Positions 1 through 40,846 of a DNA stretch of 64,000 nucleotides are shown piece after piece; position 1 is the first letter of the stretch; every line of letters begins with the position of its first letter. Source of the stretch: Asparagopsis taxiformis (taxonomy: Eukaryota > Rhodophyta > Florideophyceae > Bonnemaisoniales > Bonnemaisoniaceae); contig JALQPE010002910.1 of the NCBI GenBank assembly GCA_030407315.1, positions 1 through 64,000 of the forward strand, read 5' to 3'. The notes under the pieces are model-generated. The model ran no database searches. It was not told the DNA's origin and saw only the letters and a program-made list of their open reading frames with translations. The position numbers and the translations under genes are program-made.

Positions 1-648
1 TTGCAAGTCTTGATCTGGAGCAGCCATCAGAGGTCAGCAAAAGACGTAAACCGGTTTTAGGAAAGGCCACAGGCTCATGGATTCCTAGGCCCAAGTACAT
101 TAGCTCGGCACAGATTGCTTTGCCGACCTCGAGAATCATCTTGTTCTTGAATTGATGTTCATCCATCTGCTCGAGATCGTCGCAAATCTTCTTCTTGAGA
201 TAGAGAACCTTCCCAAACGAGAGGCCTGTTGCTCTGCTGTTACCTCACCCTTGTTTCGAATCTGATGCCAGGGATCATTGGAACTGTCTTCAGCAGAAGA
301 ATGAACAGGTTTGAACTTCTGGGCGTAGAACGTGAACAGTTCATGTGCTGCGTTGCCCACAGTCGAAGAACGGAAGATACCACTGAGTACATGGGCACCC
401 AAGAGATTGAGAGTTGACCTAGCTGTTGCAAAGAACTTCTCTGCACAGCAAGCTGGACCACTGCACGCTATACAATTCATATCGGCAGCAGCTGCACTCA
501 AAATCTCCTGTCGGATTGTTTCGTACAGCTTGCTGTCGATATAGTACTTGACCCTAGAGTCTGACGGTATGGTGTTCGGGAGAATATCCATAATCCGTTC
601 ATCGACTACCCTGTCGGGGAGGGGATTTTCCTGCTCATCGCTGAACAA
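1..648 (-). pseudogene. 2OG-Fe(II) dioxygenase-like domain, copy 1 (frameshifted, runs off window)
   Basis: This is the C-terminal part of the ParB/dioxygenase gene, copy 1. An open frame of 170 codons starts at 648. Its residues from about 34 (VKYYIDSKL) align with the start of the copy 2 dioxygenase at 5031 (MKYYVNGKL), and IFRSSTVGNAAHELF matches IFKSSTTADAIHELL. Near 200-225 the homology leaves this frame: a second frame, open to the window edge, reads KKKICDDLEQ then ICAEL and AFPKTG, matching KSLCDDLED, ICAEC and AFPSTG of copy 2. This is a single-base frameshift. The predicted metal-binding motif would lie beyond position 1, so activity cannot be judged. In this copy the segment before VKYY (DEQENPLPDR ... 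SDSR) is continuous in frame with the dioxygenase part and aligns with the C-terminus of the copy 2 ParB protein. That points to an ancestral single fused gene. Confidence 0.7.
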
Positions 649-2608
649 TGGAATCTCCTCGGTTGAACGTTTTCACCGTACGGTTAGCTTCCAGTCTTCC
701 GCGCTTCGGAAGGGGCTCTTCGGACTCTTCTTCTACCTCCGACTCTGCCTGACTGTCGCCGCCAAACCGTAGACTCTCCGTTCTCTGCCGTTTCGACCTG
801 CGAAGTGTCTCGACTGGCTCATTCACCGCAAGCGGTGGTGCATTGAGAGGGAGACGGAGGAGAACAGATCCCAATTGCTTCTCAGAACCTGCCACAGTGG
901 CATCAGGGGTTCCTTGAGCCTGCTCAACTGCAGGAACGGAAGTGGCAGGAGCAGGAGGGGTAGCAGGAGGGGTGGAAGGGGCGGGAACGGAAGCGGCAGG
1001 AGGAGGGGTAGCAGGAGGGGTGGAAGGGGCGGGAACGGAAGTGGCAGGAGGAGGAGGGGTAGTAGGAGCAGGAGTAGAAGGGGTAGAGGGGTAGAAGGGG
1101 TAGAAGGGGTAGAAGGAGTAGAAGGGTAGAATGAGCACGAGGAGCAGGAGGGGTAGAAAAGGCAGGAGGGGTAGAAGGGGCAGGAGGAGTAGGACCAGAA
1201 CGGGTAGAAGGGGTAGAAGGCTCATCTGATTGGGGCGTAGATGGCTTCGGCGCATCTTCAGATGGCTGTTCATTGTGAACAATGACCCTTTGGTCTTCTT
1301 CCATGTCCACAACGCCCGTGGAAAAGCGAAGCTGCTCATACATTTCGTCGGAGACGAGAGCATGCTTCGTACCGCTGTTATCGTCGGTATTGAAGTGCAG
1401 GAGGGTCTCCGCGATACTGTTCGCAATAACAGTCTCCTTTCCTGACCCAGTGTTCTTGAGCTCGGAGTAGAAATGGTCGAGCGGAGGCTCCATCATTTTG
1501 TGAGCAGCAACCGGCTCGGACATCTTGAACACTTCAATCAAAACACGAACGAAAGGATTACCAAATCCTCTTGTCGTCCTACTCAACTGACGCAGATCTC
1601 GCATGCGTGTCCAGAGAGCTGTTATGAGCAAGATGAACCTTTGCTGATACTCCGAGCCGCGACGGAAGTCTGCCATGAAAACGAGATCCATGTTGCAGCC
1701 ATACATGTCTACGGACTGCTTGAAGACATCGTCGTTGATGTCACGGCCTTCTTTAACGGCCCTTTCCTGTTCCGCAGCGAGAATTTCCTTGGTGAACATG
1801 CTCGGTACGGAACTCCAGAACTCAAGCGCTTTGTTGTTCACAGTCCGGAAGCCTTTCGCAGCAGTCACGTGCTTGTTGATGGCTTGGTAGCCCAGTTTCG
1901 ATATCGACAACTGGCTGTCCATGATGACCTGAATGCACTTCCGATTCGGTTCACCAACATGTCCTTGGTCGTGAGCAGTTGGACCACAGAACACACTCGG
2001 TCTGCCAAAGAAACAAGGGCAACATCATGCGTGAGTGTGTTTGCTTGAATGGACAGCCCGAGTACTTCAAAAGGTGTGAAGTACTCATCGGAAACTTCTT
2101 CTGTCCCTGGGCGCCTGATCAAAGCCACATCGATGTTCCTGAATGACGCAGCATACGGATGTTGCCCTTCCGGGTCTTCACGAATGCACTTCTGGAGAGC
2201 CGCAACGCGATGGCCACCATCGATGTAGAACGTTTGAAGGGTGGGGGTTGTGCTGCCTTCACTGGGAAGGAGCATTTTGCAGGCAAGGATTCGGGAGATT
2301 GAGGAGGTGAATCCTTCCCTCAGGAACTTCTCCTTCAGCTCAAGCACTCTCCCTTCCCTAATATGACGAGAGAATAGGGGGGGTCTGTGCAAATCCAAGG
2401 GAGACAGCCTGTGGTCAGCTTTGGGACAGTCTGACAACTGAACCTCGGCGGTGACAGAGTTATCGTGACCAGGGCTGCGAGAAGGGGCGCGAGAGCGAGA
2501 AGGGGCGCGAGAGCGAGAAGGGGCGCGAGAGCGAGCGGAGGCCCGACCGCGAGTCGAAGCGCGAGCAGGGGCGGGGGCAGAGGGTTTGGAGCGAGTGCGA
2601 GGAGCCAT
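635..2608 (-). pseudogene. ParB/sulfiredoxin-fold domain protein, copy 1 (frameshifted)
   Basis: The likely start is the ATG at 2608. It opens a basic N-terminus with three RAPSRS repeats; the same frame upstream of it shows no homology to copy 2. The ParB/Srx-type region includes SPLDLHRPP, a helix, EGFTSSI and the signature IDGGHRVAAL at about 2220-2230. Homology to copy 2 then changes frame near 1940-1960: LADRVCSVVQLLTTKD is in frame 1 and KGFRTVNNKALEFWSSVPSMF in frame 2. It changes again near 1085-1135 inside Pro/Ser/Thr-rich repeats (ATSVPAPSTPP type), and once more near 645-670. The tail is acidic, then basic (EVEEESEEPLPKRGR), like a nuclear protein. With at least three frame breaks next to retrotransposon ORFs over 1500 codons that are intact, decay is more likely than sequencing error. 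The ParB fold is recognised by motif only; the central conserved region (FWSSVPSMF, ALWTRMRDLR) has no family I can name. Confidence 0.65.
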
Positions 2609-2610
2609 TG

Positions 2611-3045
2611 AAGGATGATGGAAAGCAGGAATGGAGAGAAGCTTGATTGAGTGTACGACCCCGATAACGACGATACAGAGACGATTAAGATAGATTATTT
2701 CGCTACTGCAGTCTGATAAAGGATCAAACGTGAACAATCCGTTCAACTCTGATTTCAATTTTTGTTTATTTCTAGACCACTTGACTCAGATCAAGAGTAA
2801 TACTCGAAATTCAGTTAATTTCTGCGGCCAAATACAATCGCTATACGACGAGTTCACACTCAAAGTGGCTAAACAGGTACGAGTTGGTCATGGTGATTAC
2901 CCCAAAACCACTCAAGTAATAACTACATAATGCTGAAGTCACATACTTCCCAGCATTTTGCACCAACTCGTGGAGCTGATGCGTACATACCAATGCATCT
3001 GTATTCAACATGAACCACGAATAAGTGGGCTTCGGCCAATGAGTG
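2611..3045. other. Region upstream of copy 1, no gene seen
   Basis: This AT-richer intergenic stretch lies between the copy 1 start and the repeat array. Only short chance open frames are present. The last 50 bases already carry fragments of the array (CCAATGAGTGCACTGCACCTGG), so the array decays gradually toward the gene. Confidence 0.5.
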
Positions 3046-3780
3046 CACTGCACCTGGCTTGAGAAACTAGGAATAATACCCGGTATTATTTTGGCCTCCC
3101 AAACGCCAGGTGCACCAACGCCATTGGCCGGTGGTAGTTTGGACAACCTCGGCCAATGGGTTGGTGCACTTGGTCTATACCGACCCAAAATAATACCGGG
3201 TATTATTTTGGCCTCCCAAACGCCAGGTGCACCAACGCCATTGGCCGAGGGTATCGGCTACCACCGGCCAATGGGGTTGGTGCACTTGGTCTATATCGAC
3301 CCAAAATAATACCGGGTATTATTTTGGCCTCCAAAAGCCAGGTGCACCAACGCCATTGGCCGGTGGTAGTTTGGACAACCTCGGCCAATGGGGTTGGTGC
3401 ACTTGGTCTATACCCCCAAAATAATACCGGGTATTATTTTGGCCTCCCAAACGCCAGGTGCACCAACGCCATTGGCCGGGGTATCCGGCTACCACCGGCC
3501 AATGGGGTTGGTGCACTTGGTCTATACCGACCCAAAATAATACCGGGTATTATTTTGGCCTCCCAAAAGCCAGGTGCACCAACGCCATTGGCCGGTGGTA
3601 GTTTGGCAACCTCGGCCAATGGGGTTGGTGCACTTGGTCTATACCGACCCAAAATAATACCGGTATTATTTTGGCCTCCCAAAAGCCAGGTGCACCAACG
3701 CCATTGGCTGAGGTTATCCGGAGTACCCCCAGGCAATGGGGTTGGTGCACTTGGTCTACACCCACCCAACTTTATACCCG
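3046..3780. repeat. Tandem array 1: six ~116-bp palindromic units in alternating orientation
   Basis: A near-perfect 27-bp palindrome (centre ATACCGGGTATTATTTT) recurs at about 3068, 3184, 3301, 3416, 3531 and 3648. Between cores each unit is a long stem-loop: GCCAGGTGCACCAACGCCAT on the left arm is the inverse of the right arm (ATGGGGTTGGTGCACTTGG). The loops alternate strictly between type A (GTGGTAGTTTGGACAACCT) and type B (GGGTATCCGGCTACCAC), and B resembles the reverse complement of A. Successive units are therefore inverted relative to each other. Long open frames through the array are repeat artefacts. The array lies 440 bp upstream of the copy 1 start. Confidence 0.9.
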
Positions 3781-4092
3781 GCCAGACTCCTGTTCTCAGG
3801 AACTGAAAATTTTACCGGGGATAGTAAACGATGTATTATAATACCAGGTTTTACTATCTGCTATCGTTTCTCGCATCTAATGAAGAGGTTTAGAATTTGC
3901 AGCTCTTGTAGCTAGAGCTTTCTGTGGAGAATAGCTTTCTGCATGTGGTGTTTGTTACATTTGTGAAGTTGATCTGACTATATAAAGAATCCATGCAGTA
4001 TCTCTTTTATCATGTTCTATTGGAATTGTGTTTATTACTCTACGGATTCATACCCAACTAAGGCTTCAACACGGCTGGACAGATGCCCTTCA
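3781..4092. other. Intergenic, downstream of copy 2
   Basis: The array ends in degenerate fragments (TTTATACCCGGCCAGACTCC), followed by an imperfect inverted pair, GGGGATAGTAAACGAT and GGTTTTACTATC, around 3820-3870. No gene is seen. The 3' end of the minus-strand dioxygenase lies to the right. Confidence 0.5.
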
Positions 4093-5031
4093 TCACTTCA
4101 ATTTCGAATTGCCCTCCCAATGTCCAACGACATATTCTCCTTCTTCACTTTGATGCTGCTCAGTTTTGAGGAATATGTGAGATCGGATCGGGAACTTGTA
4201 TTGAAGACCCTTATTGCTCTCAAATCCTTCCTCGTGGTGATAAACATCCCCTCGGCAGACAAGAACAGAATATGGTGGTACTTCACACCTCTTCATTGGA
4301 ACTCTGTATAACTCTCTGTTGGGATGGGATAAACAGACATGACTGTAGGGTGCAAGCACGAGGCCGAATCCATCTGCGCCGCTTGACATCATGAAGTAGG
4401 ATGGCGGAGAAGGGGGACTGTTAACTTCATCGATTCCCACTTCATAGTCTGTATGTCCAGCACGAGGTTTAGTCCGCTCTCCAGTCAGCACTAAAGTAGT
4501 TCCAGTGCTGGGGAAGGCCATCGGGTCCTTCCCACTAGTCCTCAATTCCAAACATTCCGCACAAATACCTAGACCGAGCTCAACAATCATCTTCTTCCGA
4601 TAGAGATTATTATTGTTATCCTCGAGGTCATCACATAAGCTCTTCCGCTTTGTTATAAAGATTCCTCTGCCCTTCTCACCTTCTTCATCAGAGTTTTTCC
4701 CATCCATCATAGCCATGCACCACGGTGTCCAGTCCGGATCTCTGCGGGTGTCACCGGATTCAGAGTTCTTCTTGGCATCCTCGAGACGTTCCTCAAACAA
4801 CGCAGAAAAATGAAGGAGCAGTTCGTGGATCGCATCTGCAGTAGTAGAAGACTTGAATATTCCGTCCAGAATTGTAAACCCAACCAAGTCTATTTCATTT
4901 CGTTTCTCTCGGAAATAAGCCCTCGAGAGAAACTCAGCGGAAACATTTTGTGCCGAATAGGCACTCGCTGCTGCTTCAGCGACCTCGGCTCGAAGCGTAT
5001 CGACCAGTTTCCCATTCACATAGTATTTCAT
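4093..5031 (-). CDS. Predicted 2-oxoglutarate/Fe(II)-dependent dioxygenase-like protein, copy 2
   Basis: This frame has 312 codons. The N-terminal 90 residues are helical and conserved in copy 1. The C-terminal half has the layout of a double-stranded beta-helix 2OG-Fe(II) oxygenase: H193-T-D195 (in KPRAGHTDYEV), strands with hydrophobic alternation (GLVLAPYSHVCL, YSVLVCRGD), a distal histidine at 265/266 in RGDVYHHEEG, and R283 in FPIRSHIFL, which would hold 2-oxoglutarate. Spacing fits the HxD...H...R pattern. Such enzymes hydroxylate or oxidise nucleic acids, proteins or small molecules, and the substrate here is unknown. Its ATG overlaps the stop of the upstream ParB-domain ORF by 4 nt (ATGA). 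Copy 1 shows the two parts in one frame, so the ATG may be an internal Met of a frameshifted fusion rather than a true start. The assignment rests on motif reading only. Confidence 0.6.
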   Translation of the reverse strand: MKYYVNGKLVDTLRAEVAEAAASAYSAQNVSAEFLSRAYFREKRNEIDLVGFTILDGIFKSSTTADAIHELLLHFSALFEERLEDAKKNSESGDTRRDPDWTPWCMAMMDGKNSDEEGEKGRGIFITKRKSLCDDLEDNNNNLYRKKMIVELGLGICAECLELRTSGKDPMAFPSTGTTLVLTGERTKPRAGHTDYEVGIDEVNSPPSPPSYFMMSSGADGFGLVLAPYSHVCLSHPNRELYRVPMKRCEVPPYSVLVCRGDVYHHEEGFESNKGLQYKFPIRSHIFLKTEQHQSEEGEYVVGHWEGNSKLK

Positions 5032-7616
5032 CGACTGTCGGGATGAATGATAACAGGCAGTTTCGCTTCTATACCTTCCTCCACATCTTTGTCAGGGACA
5101 TCATTTTGTTGCCTGTCCGAATACTGACCTCCTTGAACCGCGTGGACTGCAGCGTCTTTGCCGGATTGCAAATTTGCGTCTTCACGCATCTTTTGCTTCT
5201 TCTTCTGCCGCGGCCTGCTGGTATCCTCTCCCACCAGGTCAATAACCTCTTGAGGGGTGACATCCACCAATTTCCGTTTGGATCGTAGAATCATTGGCGG
5301 CGTCTCCGTATTCCTCGGCTTTGCCTTTAAGGGCACGAAACCACTGCTGTGCTTGGCTGTCATCAACTTCCTAGGCGTAGAACTGGTAACAGGTGTTTCC
5401 GTGTCCTCCAGCTCAGGTAAAACAGGTAGGCCGACATCCGCTGTAGATAACATAGCGTCTCCAGTGCCATCACCCTGATTTCGTACACCTTTCATCGGGT
5501 CCTCCGTTGTCCTTCCAGAAGAATGTTCGGGACATTCTTCGCGGACATCTTTCGTTCCAGACCCATCGCTCTTCCTAGATTCAGGACCTCCTTCACCATC
5601 TCGACCAGTTCTTGGATGACCAACTGACATATTCGCCGGCGACTTTCCACCCTGCTCTGGTCTGAGCGTGGCACTTCCGGCTGCCACTGGGCTAGGTGAT
5701 TGTTGCAGGTCATTTTCATCACCGTGGTCATTTCTTCCTCGATTTGCACCAGCTGGTTCAAGCTCTGGAGTTCCTACGTTCTTCTGCAACACATCCCCAA
5801 CTTCACAATCTCCAGGTTTCGAAGAATTGTTCTCGGTAGGCGCAGTAGGCACTGCGCGGTCCGTTGTAACCTGCTTTGCGCTTTCGGAATCTGCCGCTTT
5901 CCCTGTCGCCTCTTCACCAACCTGTGTTGCAGCACCGACCTCAGCGTTAACACGATCCGATATTTCCAGACTGCCCTGTGTCTGCTGTTGGGTAAGTACA
6001 TTTGGACTCTGTACCACGTCCGAGCGATCAATGGCAGCATTTGAAGTATCACCATACGATGCGGATTGTTGTCGTGGTTGAGGTGCAGTATTCCCTTCCA
6101 AGGATTTTCGCCTAGTCCGCCTTTCCTGCACACCTATTTCAGGCGCGACGGAATGGTCGAGAGAGTCATCCGATAGAATTGGGCCGTTGAAAACCACATA
6201 ACGGATTTCTTTCATCATAGACCGCGTCAATGCTGCACGTATACCTCTCCCAGTTGGTGCGTCGGAAGGATAGAAATCTTTGAGGACAGTCAAAATGCGA
6301 TATCGTATGGTTTTTCGTGTTCGTCCACCTGGCTCCGGTACTTCATGTAACTTCCTGAAACATGGATGAGGTGAGGAATGCCAGGAGTTTTCTTTCCGTA
6401 CAGCTTTCTCAAGTATGTCATATATTTCACACATGCTGTAGCACCACTTTTGCGCGCATGTCTTTAGACTTATACCACCATCTCCTTTCCTACGTTTCCA
6501 CATCGTCCACATTGCAGTGAGCTCTAGAATGACAAGTTTGGTGTCCACCGAAGCTTTTCGAAACGCAGAAGCGAATAGGACGTCCACAGTGCATCCCTGC
6601 ATATTCTTCGAGTCTGGCGGACTAGTTTCAGTTGCAAATCGACTTGGGATAGCTGACCAATGTTCGAACGCCGGGTTATTTACGTCTCCGAAGCCCTGCG
6701 CAATCGAAACGTACTTCATCATGATTCCTTCCTGACAACCTGGAATGACCTTGTTCTCGACTACAACTTTTGTGCACACATTTACCTTCGCCTTCATCAA
6801 GCCCTTCATCATCATGAACTTCATGACCGTACAGACGTGGTCAGCAATAGAAACTTCTATCACGTCATGAGTCTTTTCGTTCAGCTTCTGCGATATTCGC
6901 ATCACTTCAAGAGGATGAAACATTTCACGGGTTCCAGGTGGTCGGATGAAGTCAACGCTAATGCTCCTCAGTCTCCATCGATCAGCAACTGTCGGTTTGT
7001 TTTCCACAATCGACTGCAAAGCGCTGATACGATGACCTCCATCAATGCACTGCAGTTTCTTCCGTCCGTCTGACCCCATTGTTTCACAGATGGTCATTCG
7101 GGTGCCAGTTTCCAGAAACCCCTCGGTAGATATTTTGCTGACCAGATCGCGCACTCTGGCCTCCTGCACAAGACGAGAAGTTGATTCCGGTTTGGCAACA
7201 TCTAGCGGATTGATCATTTTAGGTTCAGTCCTGCATTCGACAATGTTGATGTCAATCCCCATCACAGACTCTTCTGATGCTTCCATGCCAGCAGGACTCC
7301 CCTCGCCTTCACGGACGTTAGACCTCTCCCTGTTTTTCGATTTCACCGTCCCAGGAGTAGATGGAAAGCGTAGAGTGTTTTTCCCAGATGGTGATATATC
7401 ACCAAGGGTTTTTGCTGCCTCTATCATGGCAGCGTCTGCTCCCTGAATGGGTGTCTGGCTATCTGCCGTCTCCCTTCCCGCTGCAGACGGAGTCCCTCCA
7501 TCACCAGAACCTCCGGAGGGTGTTTTATCACCGCCTACCGTCGTTGCAAGTCTCTCTGCAACGCTTTCGACGGTATCCTTTGGTTCCGCAGCGCGCTCAG
7601 TGTCGCTTCCGGCCAT
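5028..7616 (-). CDS. ParB/sulfiredoxin-fold domain protein, copy 2 (862 aa)
   Basis: Residues 1-115 are low-complexity and polar. Residues ~120-270 look like a ParB N-terminal/sulfiredoxin-type domain: INPLDVAKPESTSRLVQEA, a helix, ISTEGFLETG, then CIDGGHRISAL at 191-200 (the GxHR element of the fold), then SVDFIRPPGTREMFHPLEV and HDVIEVSIADHVC. Residues ~270-480 form a second conserved region shared with copy 1 (AFEHWSAIPSRFA, ELTAMWTMWKRRK) that may be helical. Residues ~480-800 are a long disordered Ser/Thr/Gln/Glu-rich tail. A basic patch near the end (RPRQKKKQKM) suggests nuclear targeting. Known ParB-fold proteins are CTPase DNA clamps or nucleases, while sulfiredoxins reduce peroxiredoxins; the catalytic cysteine of sulfiredoxin (GGCHR) is absent here. 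The stop overlaps the next ORF by ATGA, and array 2 lies 250 bp upstream. Confidence 0.65.
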   Translation of the reverse strand: MAGSDTERAAEPKDTVESVAERLATTVGGDKTPSGGSGDGGTPSAAGRETADSQTPIQGADAAMIEAAKTLGDISPSGKNTLRFPSTPGTVKSKNRERSNVREGEGSPAGMEASEESVMGIDINIVECRTEPKMINPLDVAKPESTSRLVQEARVRDLVSKISTEGFLETGTRMTICETMGSDGRKKLQCIDGGHRISALQSIVENKPTVADRWRLRSISVDFIRPPGTREMFHPLEVMRISQKLNEKTHDVIEVSIADHVCTVMKFMMMKGLMKAKVNVCTKVVVENKVIPGCQEGIMMKYVSIAQGFGDVNNPAFEHWSAIPSRFATETSPPDSKNMQGCTVDVLFASAFRKASVDTKLVILELTAMWTMWKRRKGDGGISLKTCAQKWCYSMCEIYDILEKAVRKENSWHSSPHPCFRKLHEVPEPGGRTRKTIRYRILTVLKDFYPSDAPTGRGIRAALTRSMMKEIRYVVFNGPILSDDSLDHSVAPEIGVQERRTRRKSLEGNTAPQPRQQSASYGDTSNAAIDRSDVVQSPNVLTQQQTQGSLEISDRVNAEVGAATQVGEEATGKAADSESAKQVTTDRAVPTAPTENNSSKPGDCEVGDVLQKNVGTPELEPAGANRGRNDHGDENDLQQSPSPVAAGSATLRPEQGGKSPANMSVGHPRTGRDGEGGPESRKSDGSGTKDVREECPEHSSGRTTEDPMKGVRNQGDGTGDAMLSTADVGLPVLPELEDTETPVTSSTPRKLMTAKHSSGFVPLKAKPRNTETPPMILRSKRKLVDVTPQEVIDLVGEDTSRPRQKKKQKMREDANLQSGKDAAVHAVQGGQYSDRQQNDVPDKDVEEGIEAKLPVIIHPDSR

Positions 7617-7865
7617 TGCAAAGATTTGGACGCGTAGAGAAGCCGTTCAGGATGACAAAGACACCTTTTCTCTCCGACTACACGATCAAGAGATATTCCT
7701 CTTTCAAGGTGGTATTTGGCGGGAAACGATCTCCCTACACGTTTAAACGTGAAATATCAGTTATTGATTCACCTTCCACGCGCTCCAATTGTATTCGGCC
7801 ATCTGTCATTCCTCGACGAAGGACTTCCCACACACAATTCCTTCGTTCCCAAAACCATCCCATTG

Positions 7866-8792
7866 CCATGAATCATAGTACTCCACTTGTCACTGGAGCC
7901 AGAAAACTATACGGGTATTTTTCCACTGCATTGGCCAGGTGCCGGTCCCCATTGGCAGCAGACAGCAATCAGTCACAATACTCCACTTGTCACTGGAGCC
8001 AGAAAACTTACCGGTATTATTTTCCACTGCATTGGCCAGGTGCCGGCTCCCCATTGGCCAGCAGACAGCCATCAGTCACAATACTCCACTTGTCACTGGA
8101 GCCAGAAAACTATACCGGGTATTATTTTCCACTGCATTGGCCAGGTGCCGGCTCCCCATTGGCAGCAGACAGCAATCAGTCACAATACTCCACTGTCACT
8201 GGAGCCAGAAAACTATACCGGGTATTATTTTCCACTGCATTGGCCAGGTGCCGGCTCCCCATTGGCAGCAGACAGCAATCAGTCACAATACTCCACTTGT
8301 CACTGGAGCCAGAAAACTATACCGGGTATTATTTTCCACTGCATTGGCCAGGTGCCGGCTCCCCATTGGCAGCAGACAGCAATCAGTCACAATACTCCAC
8401 TTGTCACTGGAGCCAGAAACTATACCGGGTATTATTTTCCACTGCATTGGCCAGGTGCCGGCTCCCCATTGGCAGCAGACAGCAATCAGTCACAATACTC
8501 CACTTGTCACTGGAGCCAGAAAACTATACCGGGTATTATTTTCCACTGCATTGGCCAGGTGCCGGCTCCCCATGGCCAGCAGACAGCCATCAGTCACAAT
8601 ACTCCACTTGTCACTGGAGCCAGAAAATTATACCGGGTATTATTTTCCACTGCATTGGCCAGGTGCCGGCTCCCCATTGGCCAGCAGACAGCCATCAGTC
8701 ACAATACTCCACTTGTCACTGGAGCCAGAAAATTATACCGGGTATTATTTTCCACTTCATTGGCCAGGTGCCAGCTCTCCATTGGATTATGC
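7866..8792. repeat. Tandem array 2: nine ~104-bp units
   Basis: The phrase CACTGGAGCCAG starts units at 7891, 7991, 8094, 8197, 8301, 8405, 8508, 8612 and 8717, a period of about 104 bp. Each unit carries TATACCGGGTATTATTTT, then CATTGGCCAGGTGCCGGCTC, then CCCATTGGC and a spacer (CAGACAGCAATCAGTCACAA). GGAGCC and GGCTCC are inverted across the core. The core and the GCCAGGTGC/CATTGGC elements are the same as in array 1 although the rest differs. Units vary by small indels, and the first and last are the most diverged. The array lies 250 bp upstream of the copy 2 ParB-domain start and just 3' of the transposase gene. Confidence 0.92.
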
Positions 8793-9044
8793 GAACTCAA
8801 CTTTGTGGAACTAGGAGTCCTGCAACTCGCGGCTCCATCTCTAGTACCAATGGCATCATACGTACGTAAGTGCGTACGCTCTTCGCAAAACACACTTTAT
8901 TTGTGCGCATGGAACAAAATCCCACACTATTCTTCAAACGACATGTACAAATTTTGTATAGCATTTGTTGGAAGACTTGATCAGGACTGCTGCTAAATGA
9001 ATTACGAAAGTTTACTGATGTATAAAACACTGTGCTGGAACACT

Positions 9045-10331
9045 CTATGCTGAACGTGGTGGGTATCCATCTTCTCTAGTTAAGACGCTCACTTCACCAC
9101 CAGAAAGAATATCACTATTGTGCTCTACAATGCCACTTTGTCTATCGTATGAACAAACTCCTGACTCGCAGTTATGTACGTGCAAAACTTCTCGGACCCC
9201 GTCGTTCATTTCAACGTGAACTATAGTATCATTCCCACCTTTCCGGTACATACCGTCTCCAGTGCATGTCAAGGGAATGCAGACAGCATATGGAGTTTTC
9301 TGCTTCCATTTCTTTGCCTTCTTCTCCTCTCCTTGCCCTACCACAATAAAAAAGGACAATGTGACGAAAAGGACACGTCTGGAACATGTGAATTCCTCCA
9401 TGCTCGTCCTGCTATGGGCGGGTACTACTATACCAGCATCATACCATCCATCTTTGCACACTGCTTGAATGATGCTTCCAGGTTCAGCACGCCCTAACCT
9501 CGATTCGCTCTCAGATCCCTCATGACTAGTGCGCACTCTTTGTGCAGCAGTGAGCCACCATAGTCGTTCACCATGTTGAGACCCGTTTACCTGTCTGGTT
9601 CTGAGAAAAGTTTCAGAAGCTTTACGTATCCTTGCCATCATGACGGTTTCTTCTGCCGGAACATTTTTCGCGTCTTCAACAGATTCCCCTCGCCACCGCG
9701 TGATTGGACAGTGGGTGCTCACCATAGTACTGCTCCTCTCTGATATGAGATGGAATACAGGACTTAAGAAGCATCTTTTTGCTGCCTCTTCTGTCGCATG
9801 TGGACTCTCCGAAATTCCTTTTCCTAGTGCAAAATACACGCGTCTGCAATCGGCAGACGTCCATTGTTTTGTATTGTGACCTACCGCACCCAGCGTGATG
9901 GCTATTCGTGCGAGCCAGTCATCGGCCATGATGAGCTCCATTGATGACAGATGTTCATTCTTATGGTTCGAGTTTCGAACCCCTCTTTTAAGAGGCTGGT
10001 GCATTCTCTCGAATAAAAGCTCTTCCACATGTTTCGCAGCTCCAAAAGCTGGTAATGTATGTACGCAAAATTCTATCAACCGATGCATGTTCGGTTTGTC
10101 CAGATGTTTCATTGCAATAGGATCCTTCTTGCATACCTCATGCAGTTCTTTCATATAGTCTGAAACAAGAGCTAGAATGTGGTCATGACGTCCGCCATTC
10201 TCGGCCTCGAACCTCCTGGTTGACTCAAGTCCATCTATCCACCATGTTGGGATGAATCGAATGCTGGCAACAACCATTTGAAACTTTTTCAGCAAACGAA
10301 GAATACGTTCAAGTTTTTCATACCGTCCCAA
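9045..10331 (-). CDS. CACTA/Plavaka-like DDE transposase, C-terminal part (second frame)
   Basis: A 428-codon frame overlaps the end of the upstream frame (10289-12745) by 43 nt in a different phase. Residues 70-130 hold the most transposase-like stretch: KPNMHRLIEFC, then FGAAKHVEELLFERMHQPLK. This fits the C-terminal acidic residue and the following histidine helix of CACTA/Plavaka-type transposases (K-H ... E...H...K). After it comes a region not recognised, rich in Cys and basic residues, ending at 9045. The switch between frames lies near 10320-10340, where IGNSWDG of the first frame appears to continue as YEKLERILRLLKKF here. One indel, a small intron or ribosomal frameshifting would each explain it. 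The ATG at 10331 is probably not a natural start. Confidence 0.5.
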   Translation of the reverse strand: MGRYEKLERILRLLKKFQMVVASIRFIPTWWIDGLESTRRFEAENGGRHDHILALVSDYMKELHEVCKKDPIAMKHLDKPNMHRLIEFCVHTLPAFGAAKHVEELLFERMHQPLKRGVRNSNHKNEHLSSMELIMADDWLARIAITLGAVGHNTKQWTSADCRRVYFALGKGISESPHATEEAAKRCFLSPVFHLISERSSTMVSTHCPITRWRGESVEDAKNVPAEETVMMARIRKASETFLRTRQVNGSQHGERLWWLTAAQRVRTSHEGSESESRLGRAEPGSIIQAVCKDGWYDAGIVVPAHSRTSMEEFTCSRRVLFVTLSFFIVVGQGEEKKAKKWKQKTPYAVCIPLTCTGDGMYRKGGNDTIVHVEMNDGVREVLHVHNCESGVCSYDRQSGIVEHNSDILSGGEVSVLTREDGYPPRSA

Positions 10332-12745
10332 GAGTTCCCGATGACGATACGAAATGCCGAATAAAATGCTTGGGGAGCTACAACGAGAACAGCGAATATA
10401 TCGCTCATGTTCATCGATAATAGGTAGTTCTGCCCGAATACCTGACTCTGACTACTCAAACAGAACATTCGGAGGGTATTCAGTAGAACTGTTTCCGCAA
10501 CATTTCGAAGTACAGGTGTTGCTGCGGTGATTGTGGCATTCATCACATCTTGAGCCAGTCCGGAGAGCAGATGGTCTGGGGCAACTACAGCAGAGCGATA
10601 TGGATCGAATTGACAAGGAACAACTGGAACTCCTTCTTCGTTTGTAGGAACTCCTCTCCGCACACGATTAAGGGATTCACTCAAATTATGGAGTGCCTTA
10701 TTCTCAATCGGATCTAGGCTTAGTCCAAGAACTTTGAGCTGATCTTGCGATGCGACTTCCCTCACAAGCTTGTTTCGGTGCATTCCTCGGGCATGCGTAC
10801 TCATCTGACTGTTTAGCAATGCTGTGTATGCATTTCGTGAACCTCCACTGCTGCTCATATCTTGCTTTTCGAAAATGCAGCTATGGCATGGTGTATTACT
10901 GGTGTGACCACGGACATCCAGAGTATGCGAAACAGCTGGGTAATCTCCGATAAATCCAACAGGATCCAGGAATATGACCACATCTTCTCCATTTGCATCT
11001 TTCGCTGGAAAACCGTCTGTACTTCCCTTCACAATGTCGGGTACAACTCTCTCAATTACAACATTTGTTGAAACTCCCGGGGGAACGAATCCAAGAACGC
11101 GGACTGCGTGGAAGCTTTCTCTCTTGCTTGGCTGTATGCCTAATGGAAGCATATAGCAGCCACCAAAACTTCCTTTCCGGCTTGTGAACGGCTGGAAGTC
11201 ATCAGCATATAGCAGAAATCGGTATACGATATATTTCCTGCCATCTGAAAGATTCCCCTCACTGCAGGCATCCATACGTTTAGAGCCGGGGTGCCATCTA
11301 GACCTCTTGTCTGGAGCTCCTATGAGCTGGACGTCTTTCACCCGAATTTGTTCGCGATGTAGCTGCCCAGTTGCTCCCCTTGTGGAGCAAATGAGAAAAG
11401 TCGCATGTTCAGAGCGTCCCTTTTTCAGATGTCTGTTCACGAGTAGTAACTCTTCAAATGTGCTCCCATCAGACTTACTTTTTGGCCGAAACAGAGTGAT
11501 AGCGTCACCTGCCCGAATATCATTGTTGCAATGTTCTCCGTCGAGCGTTGTGGTGGAGACGACACGCCTCGCATTTCTTTTCTCAGTTTCTTCCATTGCA
11601 TCGATTTGCGGGTCTATCACATCTTCCATATTTGATTCTTGTTGTTCTTCTCCGGTTGCAAGATAACTTGCAATGATGATAGCTTCAATTCTCCAGTCAC
11701 TCCTTGCTGTAAAACTTCTTCTGCTCCTAGAATTCTTTCCAGTTTCGATGTTCTTTCCCTGTTTCGTTCTGGCTCCTCCCAGCTTAGCCACCAGGGCCTC
11801 TTGATTTGTCGTCGGCATACATATGATCCTCAACTCGTCTCCATGTCGGGCGTATACCTTTCTGTGCATCTTGTGACCGTCATGATCTGATGCACTTACC
11901 GAAATGCGATGGAATGGGTCATTCAGAACAGCTGAACGGCATTTGACAATGAAAGAGTTTTCAATACTTTCTGAAGCAATTTGATATGCTTCATCTTCTC
12001 TTTCATCACTACTATCCCTTTTACTAGACTTTATGCAGTCCAGAATGGGTCCGGTCTGTATATCCCTTTCCGCCCATGTGCTCGGTAGCACGACTCGTAC
12101 CGATGTAGTACAATGAGCTCTACGGCTACTAGACAGTCCTGGAGACATCTTTCCAAGCCTAGAGCCGCTTTTTGTTACATCTATTTCACACGTTGTATCC
12201 ATGCTTTGTGGGAAACATGTTTTCAGAATGAACGGTAAAATGACTTTCCTCATGTACGAGTCGCTAGGTGCTTGATCCGAAATGTCCCGCTTGAAATTAG
12301 ACATCTCACGCATACCTTCATAGTCCTTGCGTTTCATCCGTAGCGTTCCACTAAGCAATATTATTGCAGAGAATACTGGCCAGGTCAGCAGTTTATCCAC
12401 AAGTCTGCGGTCATCTTCCGCTGCCTCTTCTCCGTCGTGGTCATCACAGCTCTCGGCCGAGCTTTCCTCAGAGCCTATAGTTTCTTCTTCTCTCGTAACT
12501 TTTCCAGCCTCAAAAAATGCAATGTGCTCTTCTCCATTGCCACTAGAAATATTCTCGTCTTCAGCAGATGCTTTTCCGACGTTTTCGTCCGGTATATCGG
12601 CGTGAACCTCGAATGTTTCGTTCGAAACTAGCGGGGTTTCCCCATTTTCGTGCCTTGTCCCACTTTCGTATGGGATTGGCAATGATTCAAACCTTCTCCG
12701 GGTTCTTCGAGGTGTACCTTTCTTCCGAACAGCTGTTCGTTTCAT
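10289..12745 (-). CDS. CACTA/Plavaka-like DDE transposase, N-terminal and catalytic part
   Basis: This frame has 818 codons. The start is a basic peptide (MKRTAVRKKGTPRRTRRR) suited to nuclear entry, followed by an acidic linker (residues 45-115). The transposase-like core is at about 505-625: FLLYADDFQPF (first catalytic Asp region, D515/D516), YMLPLGIQPSKRESFHAVRVLG, a divergent strand-helix segment with FIGDYPAVSHTLD, then the zinc-binding HTSNTPCHSCIF. This order (D...P...S, Y-L-P-R, D-x-P, C-x2-C) is typical of Plavaka/KDZ/CACTA-related transposases of fungi and other eukaryotes. About 680-760 is LHNLSESLNRVRRG and a Pro-His segment (VAPDHLLSGL) that fits the family's insertion before the last acidic residue. 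The protein continues in another frame at 9045-10331. No terminal inverted repeats were identified with confidence. Confidence 0.55.
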   Translation of the reverse strand: MKRTAVRKKGTPRRTRRRFESLPIPYESGTRHENGETPLVSNETFEVHADIPDENVGKASAEDENISSGNGEEHIAFFEAGKVTREEETIGSEESSAESCDDHDGEEAAEDDRRLVDKLLTWPVFSAIILLSGTLRMKRKDYEGMREMSNFKRDISDQAPSDSYMRKVILPFILKTCFPQSMDTTCEIDVTKSGSRLGKMSPGLSSSRRAHCTTSVRVVLPSTWAERDIQTGPILDCIKSSKRDSSDEREDEAYQIASESIENSFIVKCRSAVLNDPFHRISVSASDHDGHKMHRKVYARHGDELRIICMPTTNQEALVAKLGGARTKQGKNIETGKNSRSRRSFTARSDWRIEAIIIASYLATGEEQQESNMEDVIDPQIDAMEETEKRNARRVVSTTTLDGEHCNNDIRAGDAITLFRPKSKSDGSTFEELLLVNRHLKKGRSEHATFLICSTRGATGQLHREQIRVKDVQLIGAPDKRSRWHPGSKRMDACSEGNLSDGRKYIVYRFLLYADDFQPFTSRKGSFGGCYMLPLGIQPSKRESFHAVRVLGFVPPGVSTNVVIERVVPDIVKGSTDGFPAKDANGEDVVIFLDPVGFIGDYPAVSHTLDVRGHTSNTPCHSCIFEKQDMSSSGGSRNAYTALLNSQMSTHARGMHRNKLVREVASQDQLKVLGLSLDPIENKALHNLSESLNRVRRGVPTNEEGVPVVPCQFDPYRSAVVAPDHLLSGLAQDVMNATITAATPVLRNVAETVLLNTLRMFCLSSQSQVFGQNYLLSMNMSDIFAVLVVAPQAFYSAFRIVIGNSWDGMKNLNVFFVC

Positions 12746-13279
12746 CTCTTCTCTTTGGATTCGAGAGAACTTTGCACAAATTGTAGATTAATGTCAACTA
12801 GTAGGCAACTAATGAGATGGTATCCGTCTCTTTTTAACCAGGCCACTGTAATAGTTTATAGTACCTATATTTTCTTACCGTTACATCTTATCGAAAACTT
12901 CACACTGAATAGTGTCCTACCTAACTCAAGGAACAGGTGACTTGATTTCCCATGTTGGGTTCTTCAGCGATCTTTAATGCCTCCAACGATTCCTGCTTCC
13001 TTTTCTGAATGAAATACACGAATCATTTACAATTTAGCTTCAGTACATGGTATAATAGGCCTCAATAGTAATCTTGTTATGGTAATAAACTATATATAGA
13101 TGAGAACACGGTTGCAATTCTCTTTCGGATTGTCTACTACTCTAATTTACAGCATTTATTCGATGTTTCTCCTTCAGTATGCAGCTAAACATCAATACCA
13201 AGACTTTTAGGTTGGTTTGACATTGCGTAGGGGCATGATTTCTATTTCTGCTAATTTATCACGTCCAGAAAATTTGACA

Positions 13280-13332
13280 GATCATCCGCTGCCAAATCAT
13301 CTGCCACATCATCGTCTGCCAAATCATCTGCC
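13280..13332 (+). repeat. Short tandem repeat, ATCATCTGCCAA type
   Basis: Four imperfect 12-15-bp units (ATCATCCGCTGCCAA, ATCATCTGCCAC, ATCATCGTCTGCCAA, ATCATCTGCC) run in a row. No coding frame is supported here. Confidence 0.7.
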
Positions 13333-13582
13333 TTCCAGTTACGACGAGGTCATTATGAGTGGATGAGCTGTCTATTTAAGGCTGTTGATGCGCGACGTAT
13401 AGGACCATTTCATCATCCGGTTATCATGAAGATGACAGGTAAGGCTGGTACGTTGTCGAGTAGGTATCTTTCCCCTCTCTCATTTCTTTCCACATGCTTT
13501 CCATGAAAGATAGTGCACTAACCATAAATATCGTTCTTCGCTGATCCTATTCTAGTCTATTGATTGCAAATGATTCTGGCAT

Positions 13583-13652
13583 AGGTATTGGTTATAGGTT
13601 GGAATGACGAAAGCTTGCAAGCTTTCGTCATTCCAACCTACAACCAATACCT
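13583..13652. repeat. 70-bp near-perfect palindrome
   Basis: Two 35-bp arms meet with no spacer at AAGCTTG/CAAGCTT. The left arm, AGGTATTGGTTATAGGTTGG and onward, equals the reverse complement of the right arm except for one base (TTATAGG against TTGTAGG). With one further mismatch the symmetry extends a few bases on both sides. It would form a strong cruciform or hairpin. Confidence 0.92.
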
Positions 13653-14149
13653 TTGCACGCAAAAATAGTTCAATGATGGTAAGTTTGTTCATTCCATTCA
13701 TACTCATGTTCTTCTCATCCTTTACAATACTTTTCTATATCCGATTGCTAACCTGTTGCAAATCATCTGTAATGGTGTTTATTTCCCTCCTGTCTGAACA
13801 TCACATGTAGTTTTGAAACAGCGAGGAACTCGATTTGCTTGCACAATAGTCCTGGTTGTAGAGATAGTAAGATTTTAGATACGATAGTTCGATTTAATGA
13901 GTAGTCTAGTCTAATGATAGAACTGAAACATTCCTTCAGGCATCGTTGTCCTTGCTACATAAAAATTCTGACATCCTTTTAGATCACACTTGGTTATCCC
14001 TACACACTTCTATGAAGACCACCGAGAGAGATACTCCATTCTGCCCGACATTTCGTAGCCAGATGCCTGAACATGCGGCTGGAATGGCATTTCCACCTCA
14101 TTCTATCGTCCTGAACATCAATTGTAGGCACTAGAAAGTATTACCCTAG

Positions 14150-15340
14150 GCATCATATTCTACTACTTTCCCGTTCTGTCCGAGTCAGTACCGCCAGGCA
14201 CTACAATTTACTGGTTCAGTATAGACTTCCCGGCAGTAAATTGTACTGTCTCAAGCACTAGTTCCAGGTAGTGAAATGTACTGCCACAGGTAGCACTTCC
14301 AGGTAGTACACTGCACTGCCACAGGCAGTAACTGGTACTGTCCTATGCCCCTGTCGAGTACAACACTATCAGACAGTACTTTACGCTGATCTGGACAGCT
14401 CTATAATACATCAAAATCTACTACTTTTTGTAGTGCTGTGGGGCAGCAATTCACATATCCTGGAGCAGTACAGCGTGGCAGTGATTTACACATACGCAAG
14501 TAGTAGAGCACGGCAGCACTTTCCACCACGGCAAGTAGCACGGTACGGTAGCACTTTTCGTATCATAAAGCAGTACTATCAGGCAGCTTTTCCCAGAGAC
14601 TATCAGCACCTCATTTCATTGCTTTCACACATTTCGTCAGACATCATAATTTACTGTCCCCACTCGCTTCCACAGGCAGTAGAATACACAGCCTCGAAGC
14701 ATGTCTGCTGTCATCATATTCCACTGCATTACTCTACTGCCAGAACATAGACTTGTCACTACCTGTAAGTACAAAAAAAAGCAGCACCACACAGCAGCAG
14801 AAATTACTGCTTTGTCCAATAATAGAATACAGTACATTTCTCTGCCTCTGCCATGACCTGCAGGCAGTATCATACAGTACATCGGGGCACTACCTAAATA
14901 TAGCAAAATGTGCTGCCGTCATTCGGGCCCGCAGCCAGCACAGAACGCTGCCGGAAACACTAGCTTCTACTGCCACACGGTGCATCCCACGCCACCAAAT
15001 AGTACTGCCGTGGGCCATATTCCTGGACAGCATATTTTACTCCCTCCCCGTGCTGCCCAAGTCAGCACAATATACTACTTTATTTTACAGGCCAATGTAG
15101 CACAAATCACTGCCAGAAAGACAATCTAAATCCAGCAACTATCACTGCCTCCCACCACTGCCTCACCTCATACATCCAGGCAGTACTTTCTACTGCCGTC
15201 GGCAGCACATGGCCACTGCCTCCGGGCAGTGCACTGTACTGCCGGCAAGTAGGGCATTAATTTATATTTTTACAGTACTAAATTTTACTGCCTCAGGCAG
15301 TAAATTTTACTGCCGTACAGTACTGCCCCAGGCCCGATTT
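14150..15340. repeat. TACTGCC/GGCAGTA-rich non-coding region
   Basis: I count about 15 exact copies of the heptamer TACTGCC or its complement in 1.2 kb, with many one-base variants, spaced irregularly and often paired as an inverted couple (for example TTTACTGCC TCA GGCAGTAAA near 15290). The region has no supported gene. It ends abruptly where family 1 chromovirus pol sequence begins at about 15354. It may be a subterminal region of a DNA transposon or a regulatory cluster. Confidence 0.75.
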
Positions 15341-15397
15341 CAGACACAGTAGTGCGTTTCGCTGAAATTCGCGAAGACCGAGATCTTCAAGCGCTCG

Positions 15398-17953
15398 GTG
15401 GACTACCTGGGACATACTATTTCGCCTGGAAAGCTCTCCATACCGACGACGAAGTGCGACGCGCTGCGCGATGCGACGTACCCGACGACGAAGACGCAGC
15501 TGAGAAGTTTCCTAGGAACTTGCAATGTATACCGCCGATTCGTCGAGAAATTCGCGTTCGTCGCGGCGCCGCTTACGCAGTTGCTAAAGAAGGACCAAGG
15601 AGACAACTTACCCGCGCCGACGCCGGAGCAAACGCGCGCGTTCGAATCATTGCGACAAGCGATGTTGTCTCCGCCAATGCTCCGTCTACCGCGCGAGGGA
15701 CACCCGTATGTGCTCGATACAGACGCGTCGCAAGGGCAAATCGGATGCGCGCTACTTCAGCTAGACGCGGACGACGACGTACTACATCCAGTCGGATACT
15801 GGTCGCGCACGCTTAACGACGCGGAGCGCAACTATTCGACGACGGAACGCGAGTGCCTCGCTGTCGTATGGGCAGTTTTGCTATTACGCGCATATTTAGA
15901 AGGACGAAAGTTCACGGTTCGCACCGACCATAATTCGTTGCGTTGGATCCTGAACATGACGTCCGCAGAAGGACGACTCGCGCGCTGGAGATTGCGACTC
16001 GCCGAGTTCGAATTCGACGTCGAATACAAGAAGGGAAAACGCCACGTTATCGCCGACGCGCTCTCGCGAATGGCCACGCGAAGCTGCGACGAGACGGTAA
16101 TACCGGACGAGATACCCTGCTTCGACGCCACGAATATCGTTGAGCCGCACGCGGACGCTTATGCGCGAACCGATACCGCGCTACTATGCGACTACGCAGA
16201 ATACTACCCGAGCTTGGACTGCCTACTGGCAACTCGGTCGTGCATCGAACCGCCCGTGTCCACTGACGAGTGGATCCGCGAACAAGCGACGGACGAATTC
16301 TGCCAAAACGCGAAGCGCGACGTCGAAACCGCGCAGCGTTCACGCTTCCACCTATCCCCCGACGGGATACTAATGAGGACCGCTCCGCTCGACGACGCGA
16401 CGCAGATAGTTGTGCCCGAAGCGATAAAAGGACGTATTCTGCGAGCGAACCATTACGCGGTAACTGCAGGGCACCCGGGCGCGCGACGCATGTACGACGC
16501 AATTCGACGCGCGTATTACTGGCCGATGATGAGCGTAGACGTCTACATCACGGTGAGACAATGCGATGCGTGCGCGCGCAACCGCGTTACGCAATATCGC
16601 CATACGAACGCCCTGAAGCTATTCCCCGCTACGCGCCCGCTCGAAGACGTCGCTATCGATATTCTGGGACCGCTGCCCGAGACCCCGCGCCAACGCCGCT
16701 TCGTACTCGTAATCGCCGATCGCTACAGCAAGCTCTGTCGACTCATCGCGCTCGGACGCGTATCCGCGCTCGCCGTCGCAAAAGCGTTTTGCCGAGATTG
16801 GGTCTTCGTTTACGGACCGCCGCGCACGCTACTTTCAGATAACGGACCGCAGTTCCGCTCGAAGCTGTTTCAGGAAACGTGCGCGCTAATGGGAACGCGT
16901 AACATATTCACGACTACCTATCACCCGCAGTCGAACGGGCAGGTCGAGCGTATGAACCGTACCATCGTCGCGACGCTGCGCCATTACGTCGACGAAGAGC
17001 GAAAGAATTGGGACGAGCACCTAGACGCGCTGGCGTACGCATACAACCGCGCGATACACCGCTCGACGAATACGTCGCCGTTCGAACTCACGCTCACGCG
17101 CTACCCCGTATCGCTGGGGACGGAGCAGGTCGACACGATTCGCAGCACGCCGTTCCTCCGCATGGAGTTCCTTGCGAAGCTATCCGACGCGTACGTGCGC
17201 GCCGCGAACGCGCTGAAGAAAGCGCAAGCGAGATACAAACGCGACTTCGATCGCGGCGCACGCACGGTGAACAAGAGCATCAAGGTTGGCGACCAGGTAT
17301 ATCTGGACACTCGCGCGGGAGCGACGACACGAACGCAGCGCGACGACGGAACGCGCCCTTCGAAATTGGACTATCCCGTGTCAGGACCCTTCCCGGTCAC
17401 AAGCTGCCGCGGGCACACTTACGAAATCATAATCGACGGTGTGCCCGAACTCGTCAGCTCCGACCGTATTCGCCTAGCACCGCGCAACGCAACGCGCGCG
17501 CCGGTTACGCCAAGCGGCGAAGAAGGGGTGACTGACGCGGAGGACACAAGCGACGCAGCGCGACGTGACGAACGCGTACTTGATGACGCACGCAAGGTCA
17601 ATCCTGAAGCAGGATATGGAACGCGGGAGTTCATGATTGACAAACTGACGGCTGAAGGTGTCGATGACACCGGAGCGCCCGTATTCCGTGTACGCTGGAA
17701 GGGCTTCTCTCCGCGCGACGACACTTGGGAACCTGAAAGCTCGTTACCTGCACCCATCGTTGCCCGTTTCCGCCGCGACCGCGGACGCTCCGCCTCTGAA
17801 AACACTGCGCGCAACGCCGAGATTGACGCCACGTCACCGCGCAATCGTAGAAAGCAACCGGCACGCGGCGACGCCCCACGTATAACGCCGCCTAGCCGCG
17901 CGAGCGCGCGCATCGCGAGTCGACGGGCGCCTTCGCATGCACCGCGCAATTGA
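15398..17953 (+). CDS. Chromovirus pol, partial (RT end, RNase H, integrase, chromodomain)
   Basis: The homologous frame opens at about 15356 (VSLKFAKTE), and the ATG at 15398 is only the first Met left after truncation. Visible domains are the RT thumb region (YLGHTISPGKL), RNase H (VLDTDASQGQIGCAL, then STTERECLAVVWA and RTDHNSLRW), the integrase zinc finger (H...H...CDAC at YYWPMMSVDVYITVRQCDAC), the integrase core with D-D-E at VAIDILGPLPE, LLSDNGPQFRS and QSNGQVERMN, and a C-terminal chromodomain (VFRVRWKGFSPRDDTWEPES). It is very close to the copy at 58537-62766, with scattered substitutions. Lacking the RT catalytic YLDD region and protease, this copy cannot be autonomous. Confidence 0.93.
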   Translation: MDYLGHTISPGKLSIPTTKCDALRDATYPTTKTQLRSFLGTCNVYRRFVEKFAFVAAPLTQLLKKDQGDNLPAPTPEQTRAFESLRQAMLSPPMLRLPREGHPYVLDTDASQGQIGCALLQLDADDDVLHPVGYWSRTLNDAERNYSTTERECLAVVWAVLLLRAYLEGRKFTVRTDHNSLRWILNMTSAEGRLARWRLRLAEFEFDVEYKKGKRHVIADALSRMATRSCDETVIPDEIPCFDATNIVEPHADAYARTDTALLCDYAEYYPSLDCLLATRSCIEPPVSTDEWIREQATDEFCQNAKRDVETAQRSRFHLSPDGILMRTAPLDDATQIVVPEAIKGRILRANHYAVTAGHPGARRMYDAIRRAYYWPMMSVDVYITVRQCDACARNRVTQYRHTNALKLFPATRPLEDVAIDILGPLPETPRQRRFVLVIADRYSKLCRLIALGRVSALAVAKAFCRDWVFVYGPPRTLLSDNGPQFRSKLFQETCALMGTRNIFTTTYHPQSNGQVERMNRTIVATLRHYVDEERKNWDEHLDALAYAYNRAIHRSTNTSPFELTLTRYPVSLGTEQVDTIRSTPFLRMEFLAKLSDAYVRAANALKKAQARYKRDFDRGARTVNKSIKVGDQVYLDTRAGATTRTQRDDGTRPSKLDYPVSGPFPVTSCRGHTYEIIIDGVPELVSSDRIRLAPRNATRAPVTPSGEEGVTDAEDTSDAARRDERVLDDARKVNPEAGYGTREFMIDKLTAEGVDDTGAPVFRVRWKGFSPRDDTWEPESSLPAPIVARFRRDRGRSASENTARNAEIDATSPRNRRKQPARGDAPRITPPSRASARIASRRAPSHAPRN

Positions 17954-30744: not shown

Positions 30745-31128
30745 TTTTGCTCGCATGTAGAACAATAAATGTCGCTACGATGGTATCCTTTATTCTCGAG
30801 GTCCTGACCTAAGAAGCTAGATATATATATTCCTTCTAGTTCCCTTGTTCCCTGGATCCCAAACGCAAAACAAGTACAGAAAACATCATTGCTAGGGCAA
30901 GGTACGTAGGGCGACTCTTGCCAGCCTTCGTAGGGCATGAAGGGTTCAGATCGATACTGAATATCGATAGGGCAGCTTGACCTGCCACAATCATTACAAC
31001 AGCCAATTAACAATGTGTAAAACGCGCCGTGCCAAAAAATGTCATACAAAGTTACGTTAATTGGACGGTGTTGAAATAGGAGCAGAGAGCACTTGTCACG
31101 GCGCACAGAGTGCTAGCGGCGTGCACCA
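30745..31128 (-). repeat. 3' LTR of family 2 element (384 bp)
   Basis: It reads identical to the LTR at 36000-36383. A small frame within it (SLLLFQHRPINVT and onward) occurs in both copies only because the LTR is duplicated. Confidence 0.95.
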
Positions 31129-40755: not shown

Positions 40756-40846
40756 GATTTGAGGATGGGTCATCTTCTGAAAAGTCCTGATGACCGTCAA
40801 GCGTGAGATAGCAAGTAGGATGAGATCAAATCTAGTGCAGTGCATG

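Follow-up and report, generated by a model that had tools for sequence, protein, structure and literature searches.

We describe a mobile element at the start of a 64,000-base stretch of the genome of the red alga Asparagopsis taxiformis (contig JALQPE010002910.1, positions 1-64000, C2781 in our numbering of the genome; below, ‘the window’ means this whole stretch). Two related genes, A and B, the arrays of repeats that adjoin them, and a set of transposase-like open reading frames (ORFs) together form one DNA transposon, which covers positions 1-15354 of the window on the minus strand. The assembly comprises 141.5 Mb in 3156 contigs, and the window starts at the first base of its contig, so that gene A is cut there. 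Thirteen matches to phycobilisome families in the assembly, eleven of which lie on contig C469, agree with a red algal genome, although of themselves they would also allow a glaucophyte.

Read from its 5' end, and on the minus strand throughout, the element opens with CACTACTGTGTC... (14674-15354, first base 15354) and a series of subterminal GGCAGTA repeats. There follow a transposase-like gene (9045-12745), array 1 (7865-8785), gene B (4093-7616), array 2 (3072-3769) and gene A (1-2608). Gene B encodes a ParB-like domain, a long linker and a putative 2-oxoglutarate (2OG)-Fe(II) domain, and it is split at 5028-5031 in the window; gene A is its paralogue, truncated by the contig start and broken in frame in this copy. 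As the reference for the element's anatomy we use the copy on contig C107, of which 23,958 bases were read from the 5' end. In that copy the subterminal repeats are followed by three genes, each with an array behind it: the transposase-like gene (1233 amino acids, aa) with array 1, gene B (1174 aa) with array 2, and gene A (997 aa) with array 3. Next come a reverse-strand gene of 1169 aa, a forward gene of 462 aa, and two palindromes.

Copies and ends of the element

When the 862-aa part of gene B was searched against the genome at the protein level, 53 of 2243 candidates were scored, so that the count of gene B matches is a lower bound: there are at least 53, the window's own included, at 99-100% identity. 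Outside the window we fetched 20 copies of the element, two of them in stretches shortened by contig ends, and all 20 match the window at gene B and on its two sides. The element has been amplified recently and is present in many near-identical copies. The original prediction had described A and B as a tandemly duplicated gene. The two are indeed paralogues, with 32% identity overall, 38% in the C-terminal part and 35% in the ParB part, but a tandem duplication in the host is rejected, since the whole unit is repeated across the genome; the pair is instead the cargo of a transposon that reaches to 15354.

The 5' end is marked by a homology boundary in the three copies that we compared, those of the window, C107 and C1778. 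The boundary lies at CACTACTGTGTCTGAAATCGGGC (window 15354, reading leftwards), the flanks beyond it are unrelated in all three, and the CACTA-type terminus CACTACTG opens each of them. Allowing up to two mismatches, CACTACTGTGTCTGAAATCGGGC occurs at 326 genomic sites (160 + 166), as against none for the reversed-pattern control. At the 5' end, the one end covered, subterminal repeats are present: 12 of the 16 GGCAGTA sites in the 24 kb read from C107 fall within the first kb. Pattern searches of the genome for the 3' terminus met with no success. On the other side of the 5' boundary, window positions 15355-17953 are occupied by a truncated gypsy-type pol ORF, which is 86.8% identical to the one at window 60143 onwards; since the element abuts this truncated ORF, we conclude that it sits inside a retrotransposon.

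The transposase-like protein carries C(2)C and H(4)H motifs, with C620xxC followed by H651xxxxH. According to the relevant passage of PMC12730594, this motif set defines the CACTA/EnSpm-Mirage-Chapaev-Transib group. The window copy of the gene is split by a one-base deletion near 10324, with 0 substitutions relative to C107.

Reading frames of genes A and B

Gene B appears in the window as two ORFs, 5028-7616 (862 aa) and 4093-5031 (312 aa), which overlap by ATGA at 5028-5031, and the corresponding junction region of gene A is continuous in one frame (136-648). Both observations had been made in the original prediction and were found as claimed, and the single ancestral polypeptide that it proposed is borne out by the other copies. 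Gene B is one ORF in all 20 fetched copies (1174 aa in 19 of them, 1173 aa in the remaining one), and the open frame at gene B extends over 1121-1195 codons in 52 of the 53 matches scored, the window copy alone reaching 872. The ATGA split results from the loss of a single base and is confined to the window copy. An ancestral layout of two genes with an ATGA overlap is therefore rejected, given the single frame elsewhere.

Compared with C107, gene B of the window lacks one base and has no substitution, and the part of gene A that the window contains shows 4 mismatches and 6 insertions or deletions (indels). Because the indels in A, B and the transposase-like gene come almost without substitutions, they suggest assembly errors, with recent mutation as the alternative. 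Across the 20 copies gene B has 17 variable columns, too few for a ratio of non-synonymous to synonymous substitution rates. The start of gene A is present in 19 of the 20 fetched copies; its frame is open to the end of the stretch in 13, complete in 2 and interrupted in 4. Three copies were covered as far as the stop codon of gene A, which measures 947, 980 and 997 aa in them.

Domains of the A and B proteins

The ParB/Srx-like domain of gene B was compared over residues 110-262 (window 6831-7289, minus strand); a DGGHR motif is found in both A and B, at residues 192-196 of B. Neither protein has a Pfam match to ParB, and the single match of PF02195 over the genome, at C1526:7582-7839, lies in neither. 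We used hhalign to compare a profile of A and B with a profile of seven phage proteins and the N-terminus of the methyltransferase-SET protein described below. (The phage set omits L041, one of eight phage loci with ParB hits, which had been found using gene B at E 5.) The comparison scores 33.7, with 66% probability, as against 21.3 for the best of 200 column-shuffled controls and 17.9 for the C-terminal part of A and B; a second comparison, the tool's own, gives 54% probability. These scores lend support to the ParB/Srx-type domain of the original prediction, and by this measure a ParB-like domain in A and B is likely. The C1526 match to ParB_N (E 8.8e-8) is a separate observation: it falls in a 290-codon open frame, on a contig that is not in the element listings.

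The second region of interest in gene B, at 4150-4470 on the minus strand, contains H1055, D1057, H1127 and R1145 of the 1174-aa protein. A and B share the motifs HTD, RGD[VF]YH and P[IV]RSH in the same order (HTD at 1055, H1127 and R1145 in B), and these fit the order and spacing HxD...H...R of the 2OG oxygenase superfamily. The assignment is putative and is based on this motif. Of the 2OG-Fe(II) domain originally proposed, the motif stands, in A and B alike, but a family match does not: none was found in Pfam, NCBIfam or PHROGs, nor in sequence searches of the PDB with the two halves of gene B and with a profile of the C-terminal parts of A and B.

The sub-threshold hits that these scans returned we take as chance. 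They comprise Cys_knot, Frtz, Peptidase_C8 and DUF2585 at the ParB end of gene B (best E 0.029), a tRNA methyltransferase model for gene A (E 0.029, with a far higher cut-off), and two PHROGs of unknown function (E 0.012 and 0.32). Pfam holds a Tet_JBP model, but a Pfam scan gave no TET/JBP match: it returned nothing for A and only the sub-threshold Cys_knot for B. Scans of viral sequences and prokaryote genomes produced no useful relatives of A or B, and a tblastn search of phages with three pieces of A and B gave a portal protein as its best match, at E 0.09.

A protein with ParB-like, DNA methyltransferase and SET domains

The 1169-aa reverse-strand protein, which is encoded outside the window, consists of a ParB-like N-terminus, a DNA methyltransferase domain and a C-terminal SET domain. 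The N-terminus has no Pfam match; it matches phrog_1033 at E 1.3e-5 and, by tblastn, a ParB-like protein of a Leptospira phage at E 3e-6. The other two domains score above the Pfam cut-offs, the methyltransferase with PF01555 (N6_N4_Mtase, E 1.2e-13) and the SET domain with PF00856 (E 2.2e-5). In the methyltransferase, DPPF at 667 comes before FSGTY at about 850, which is the beta-class order. Among solved sequences the methyltransferase comes nearest to DpnA and CcrM and the SET domain to KMT2D/KMT2C, all of them weak matches, and a scan of viral sequences for relatives gave nothing useful.

In a genome-wide search for this gene 40 of 3786 candidates were scored, and the frame is intact in all 40 copies so listed. 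Gene B and the methyltransferase-SET gene are opposite-strand neighbours in 19 of 19 pairs among the matches listed (53 and 40 places, respectively), with a gap of 5.4-8.5 kb, counted from where the 862-aa part of B ends. Because the ParB-methyltransferase-SET gene adjoins them, a DNA-modifying role for A and B becomes more likely.

Palindrome arrays

The units of array 1 are about 104 bp long and contain a near-palindrome of the type AATAATACCSGGTAT. The same palindrome occurs in array 2, with units of about 116-117 bp, and it is common also to array 3, which follows gene A in C107 and has units of about 114 bp; the units of the arrays otherwise differ in length and in much of their sequence. 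The motifs GCCAATRG and GCACYTGG recur in the arrays as well, and the consensus units of both array 2 and array 3 contain inverted repeats. Most array 1 palindromes are imperfect on one side (AATAATACCCGGTATAGTT, 13 of the 27 sites in C107). All 27 ATACC[CG]GGTAT sites in C107 are intergenic, in blocks of 15, 5, 5 and 2.

Across the genome, the 23-mer of the palindrome, with at most one mismatch, has 2282 sites, and the control has 0. Five of the six palindrome contigs among the matches listed also carry the 5' terminus among the matches listed for it, the exception being C52. The CpG ratio is 0.32 in array 1, 0.38 in array 3, 0.69 in array 2 and 0.81-0.90 in the five genes, a sample too small to be used here. 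The presence of a repeated palindrome beside ParB-like genes invites comparison with parS.

Discussion

We consider it likely that the element is a giant red algal transposon of the CACTA/EnSpm type, and that its predicted DNA- or chromatin-modifying accessory enzymes (A, B and the ParB-methyltransferase-SET protein) are directed at the element itself. The ParB-like modules would bring these enzymes onto the element's own DNA, perhaps at the palindrome arrays. Once there, the methyltransferase part could write a mark on the DNA of the element and the SET part a mark on its histones, and the 2OG-like A and B proteins might oxidise or remove the methyl mark. In this way the element would tune its own expression and escape silencing by the host. 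The mechanism is drawn by analogy with the anti-silencing proposed for transposon-borne TET/JBP in PMC12730594, and with the self-marking proposed for algal ParB-methyltransferases in PMC12477816, as the relevant passages of the two papers have it. In a bolder form, the element would be a self-contained epigenetic switch: the three ParB-like enzymes would share the palindromes as a parS-like address, one writing DNA and histone marks and two 2OG-like ones erasing the DNA mark, and the chromatin state would be independent of the host. We regard this extension as doubtful.

Several observations weigh against a self-directed CACTA transposon with active enzymes. The transposase-like protein has no Pfam match, and a C(2)C/H(3-4)H pair arises by chance in 77 of 2000 shuffled proteins. 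Within the 24 kb read, neither a 3' end nor a terminal inverted repeat nor a target-site duplication was seen, and across the genome the 5' 12-mer shows no doubling (313 exact sites, versus 326 for the 23-mer). Gene A is interrupted in 4 of the 19 fetched copies that contain its start (L013, L020, L025 and L031). In the methyltransferase, FSGTY replaces FxGxG, so that the second motif is partly kept; the SET domain has GEEIFVDYG, but NDS in place of NHS, which is a motif of SET domains. Either domain could be inactive, and to judge from these motifs both activities are uncertain. When the C-terminal profile of A and B is compared with ten PKHD-type proteins and with AlkB, its scores lie within the shuffled range, the observed score being reached by 10 to 66 shuffles in 100, and a positive control of AlkB against PKHD scores equally low. 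AlphaFold models built from two-sequence alignments have mean confidence (pLDDT) values of 34.7 and 33.7 and give no usable fold.

A rival view, which in our estimation is somewhat unlikely, has the accessory enzymes working on the chromatin of the host, or carried along passively, and explains the palindromes as parts of promoters or of replication sites to which a host factor or the transposase binds. The link between ParB-like modules and palindromes, and with it the target of the enzymes, is one that we infer; the arrays, moreover, stand before and between genes, as promoters would, and hairpins could form in transcripts of arrays 2 and 3, given the inverted repeats of their consensus units. 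Several associations nevertheless speak for a self-directed function. In each of the 20 fetched copies gene B has array sequence beside it, and in every pair among the matches listed it adjoins the methyltransferase-SET gene. The frames, too, have been kept: in 52 of 53 scored copies of B, in 40 of 40 listed copies of the methyltransferase-SET gene and, as far as read, in 15 of 19 copies of A. Finally, the corresponding passage of PMC12477816 interprets the ParB-methyltransferase of an Ectocarpus transposon as possibly self-directed.

A different objection concerns the C-terminal domain of A and B, which could be some other jelly roll that binds metal, or could have an unrelated fold, the HxD...H...R pattern being coincidental. 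The lack of a 2OG family match and the PKHD/AlkB scores within shuffles are what such a fold would lead us to expect. Yet the profile test is without power, since its positive control scores equally low, and HTD, RGD[VF]YH and P[IV]RSH have been kept between paralogues that are only 32% identical overall. On balance we think a coincidental pattern unlikely. Much more improbable still is the idea that the unit is an integrated virus or something virus-like. Phage relatives of the methyltransferase and ParB parts do exist (in a search that did not cover eukaryote proteins), and the element measures at least 24 kb with a 3' part beyond the stretch read, but the CACTA terminus and the subterminal repeats argue against it, as does the transposase-like gene with its C(2)C/H(4)H motifs, and no capsid or polymerase family was found among the five element genes scanned against Pfam.

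Elements of related kinds have been described. Giant EnSpm elements with several accessory genes occur in red algae (Petroll et al. 2025, as reported in PMC12477816), and those of Bostrychia moritziana resemble the present element in their red algal host, EnSpm/CACTA type, giant size and accessory genes (same source). Algal transposons that carry ParB-methyltransferases are likewise known (Petroll et al. 2025 and Iyer et al. 2011, as cited in PMC12477816). One such is Sola1-1_Ec32 of Ectocarpus, a 21.5-kb transposon with an opposite-strand protein of 1104 aa that joins a ParB-like domain to an N4/N6 DNA methyltransferase; it belongs, however, to another transposase superfamily, and the main text of PMC12477816 contains neither ‘SET domain’ nor ‘dioxygenase’.

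Other parallels are more partial. A 2OG dioxygenase, with a proposed role in anti-silencing, is found in fungal DNA transposons, some of them EnSpm (PMC12730594), but these enzymes are of the TET/JBP family, to which the present proteins have no Pfam match, and the word ‘ParB’ is absent from the main text of that paper. The HarbingerS and MuDR transposons of Phytophthora carry a SET histone methyltransferase (cited in PMC12730594); they belong to other superfamilies, and that paper's account of them mentions no fusion of the SET protein to ParB and a DNA methyltransferase. Bdelloid N4CMT, a eukaryotic protein, joins a permuted N6_N4 methyltransferase of bacterial type to a chromatin domain and acts at transposons (PMC8885841). 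It differs in being a captured bacterial gene, with a chromodomain as its fusion partner and a silencing role, and ‘ParB’ is again absent from the main text. We found no mention of a ParB-2OG or a ParB-methyltransferase-SET fusion in our searches of an open-licence library, a scope that leaves Petroll et al. 2025 outside, and both fusions may be new.

Epigenetic enzymes borne by transposons are, in these sources, known mostly one at a time. The Asparagopsis element appears to combine a writer of DNA marks, a writer of histone marks and, possibly, an eraser that works by oxidation, all three linked to ParB-like modules, and the repeated palindromes could be the address of these enzymes. Since the element is recent and has many intact copies, both binding and methylation are directly testable.

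Other features

Contig C63 contains three 5' termini in the same orientation, at 12277, 20025 and 27776, with a spacing of about 7.75 kb; these may represent shortened copies of the element or copies arranged in tandem. An Rfam scan of window positions 1-16000 gave nothing useful. The 462-aa forward gene (L033:917-2305, minus strand) has no match in Pfam, NCBIfam or PHROG, and beyond the last palindrome a partial further reverse-strand ORF with an acidic C-terminus (L033:1-310) enters the 3' part of the element. Elsewhere in the window, an ORF of Cys-rich repeats at 29302-30768 and an ORF for a putative secreted protein at 39820-40845, for which no search was made, are perhaps host genes lying between retrotransposons.

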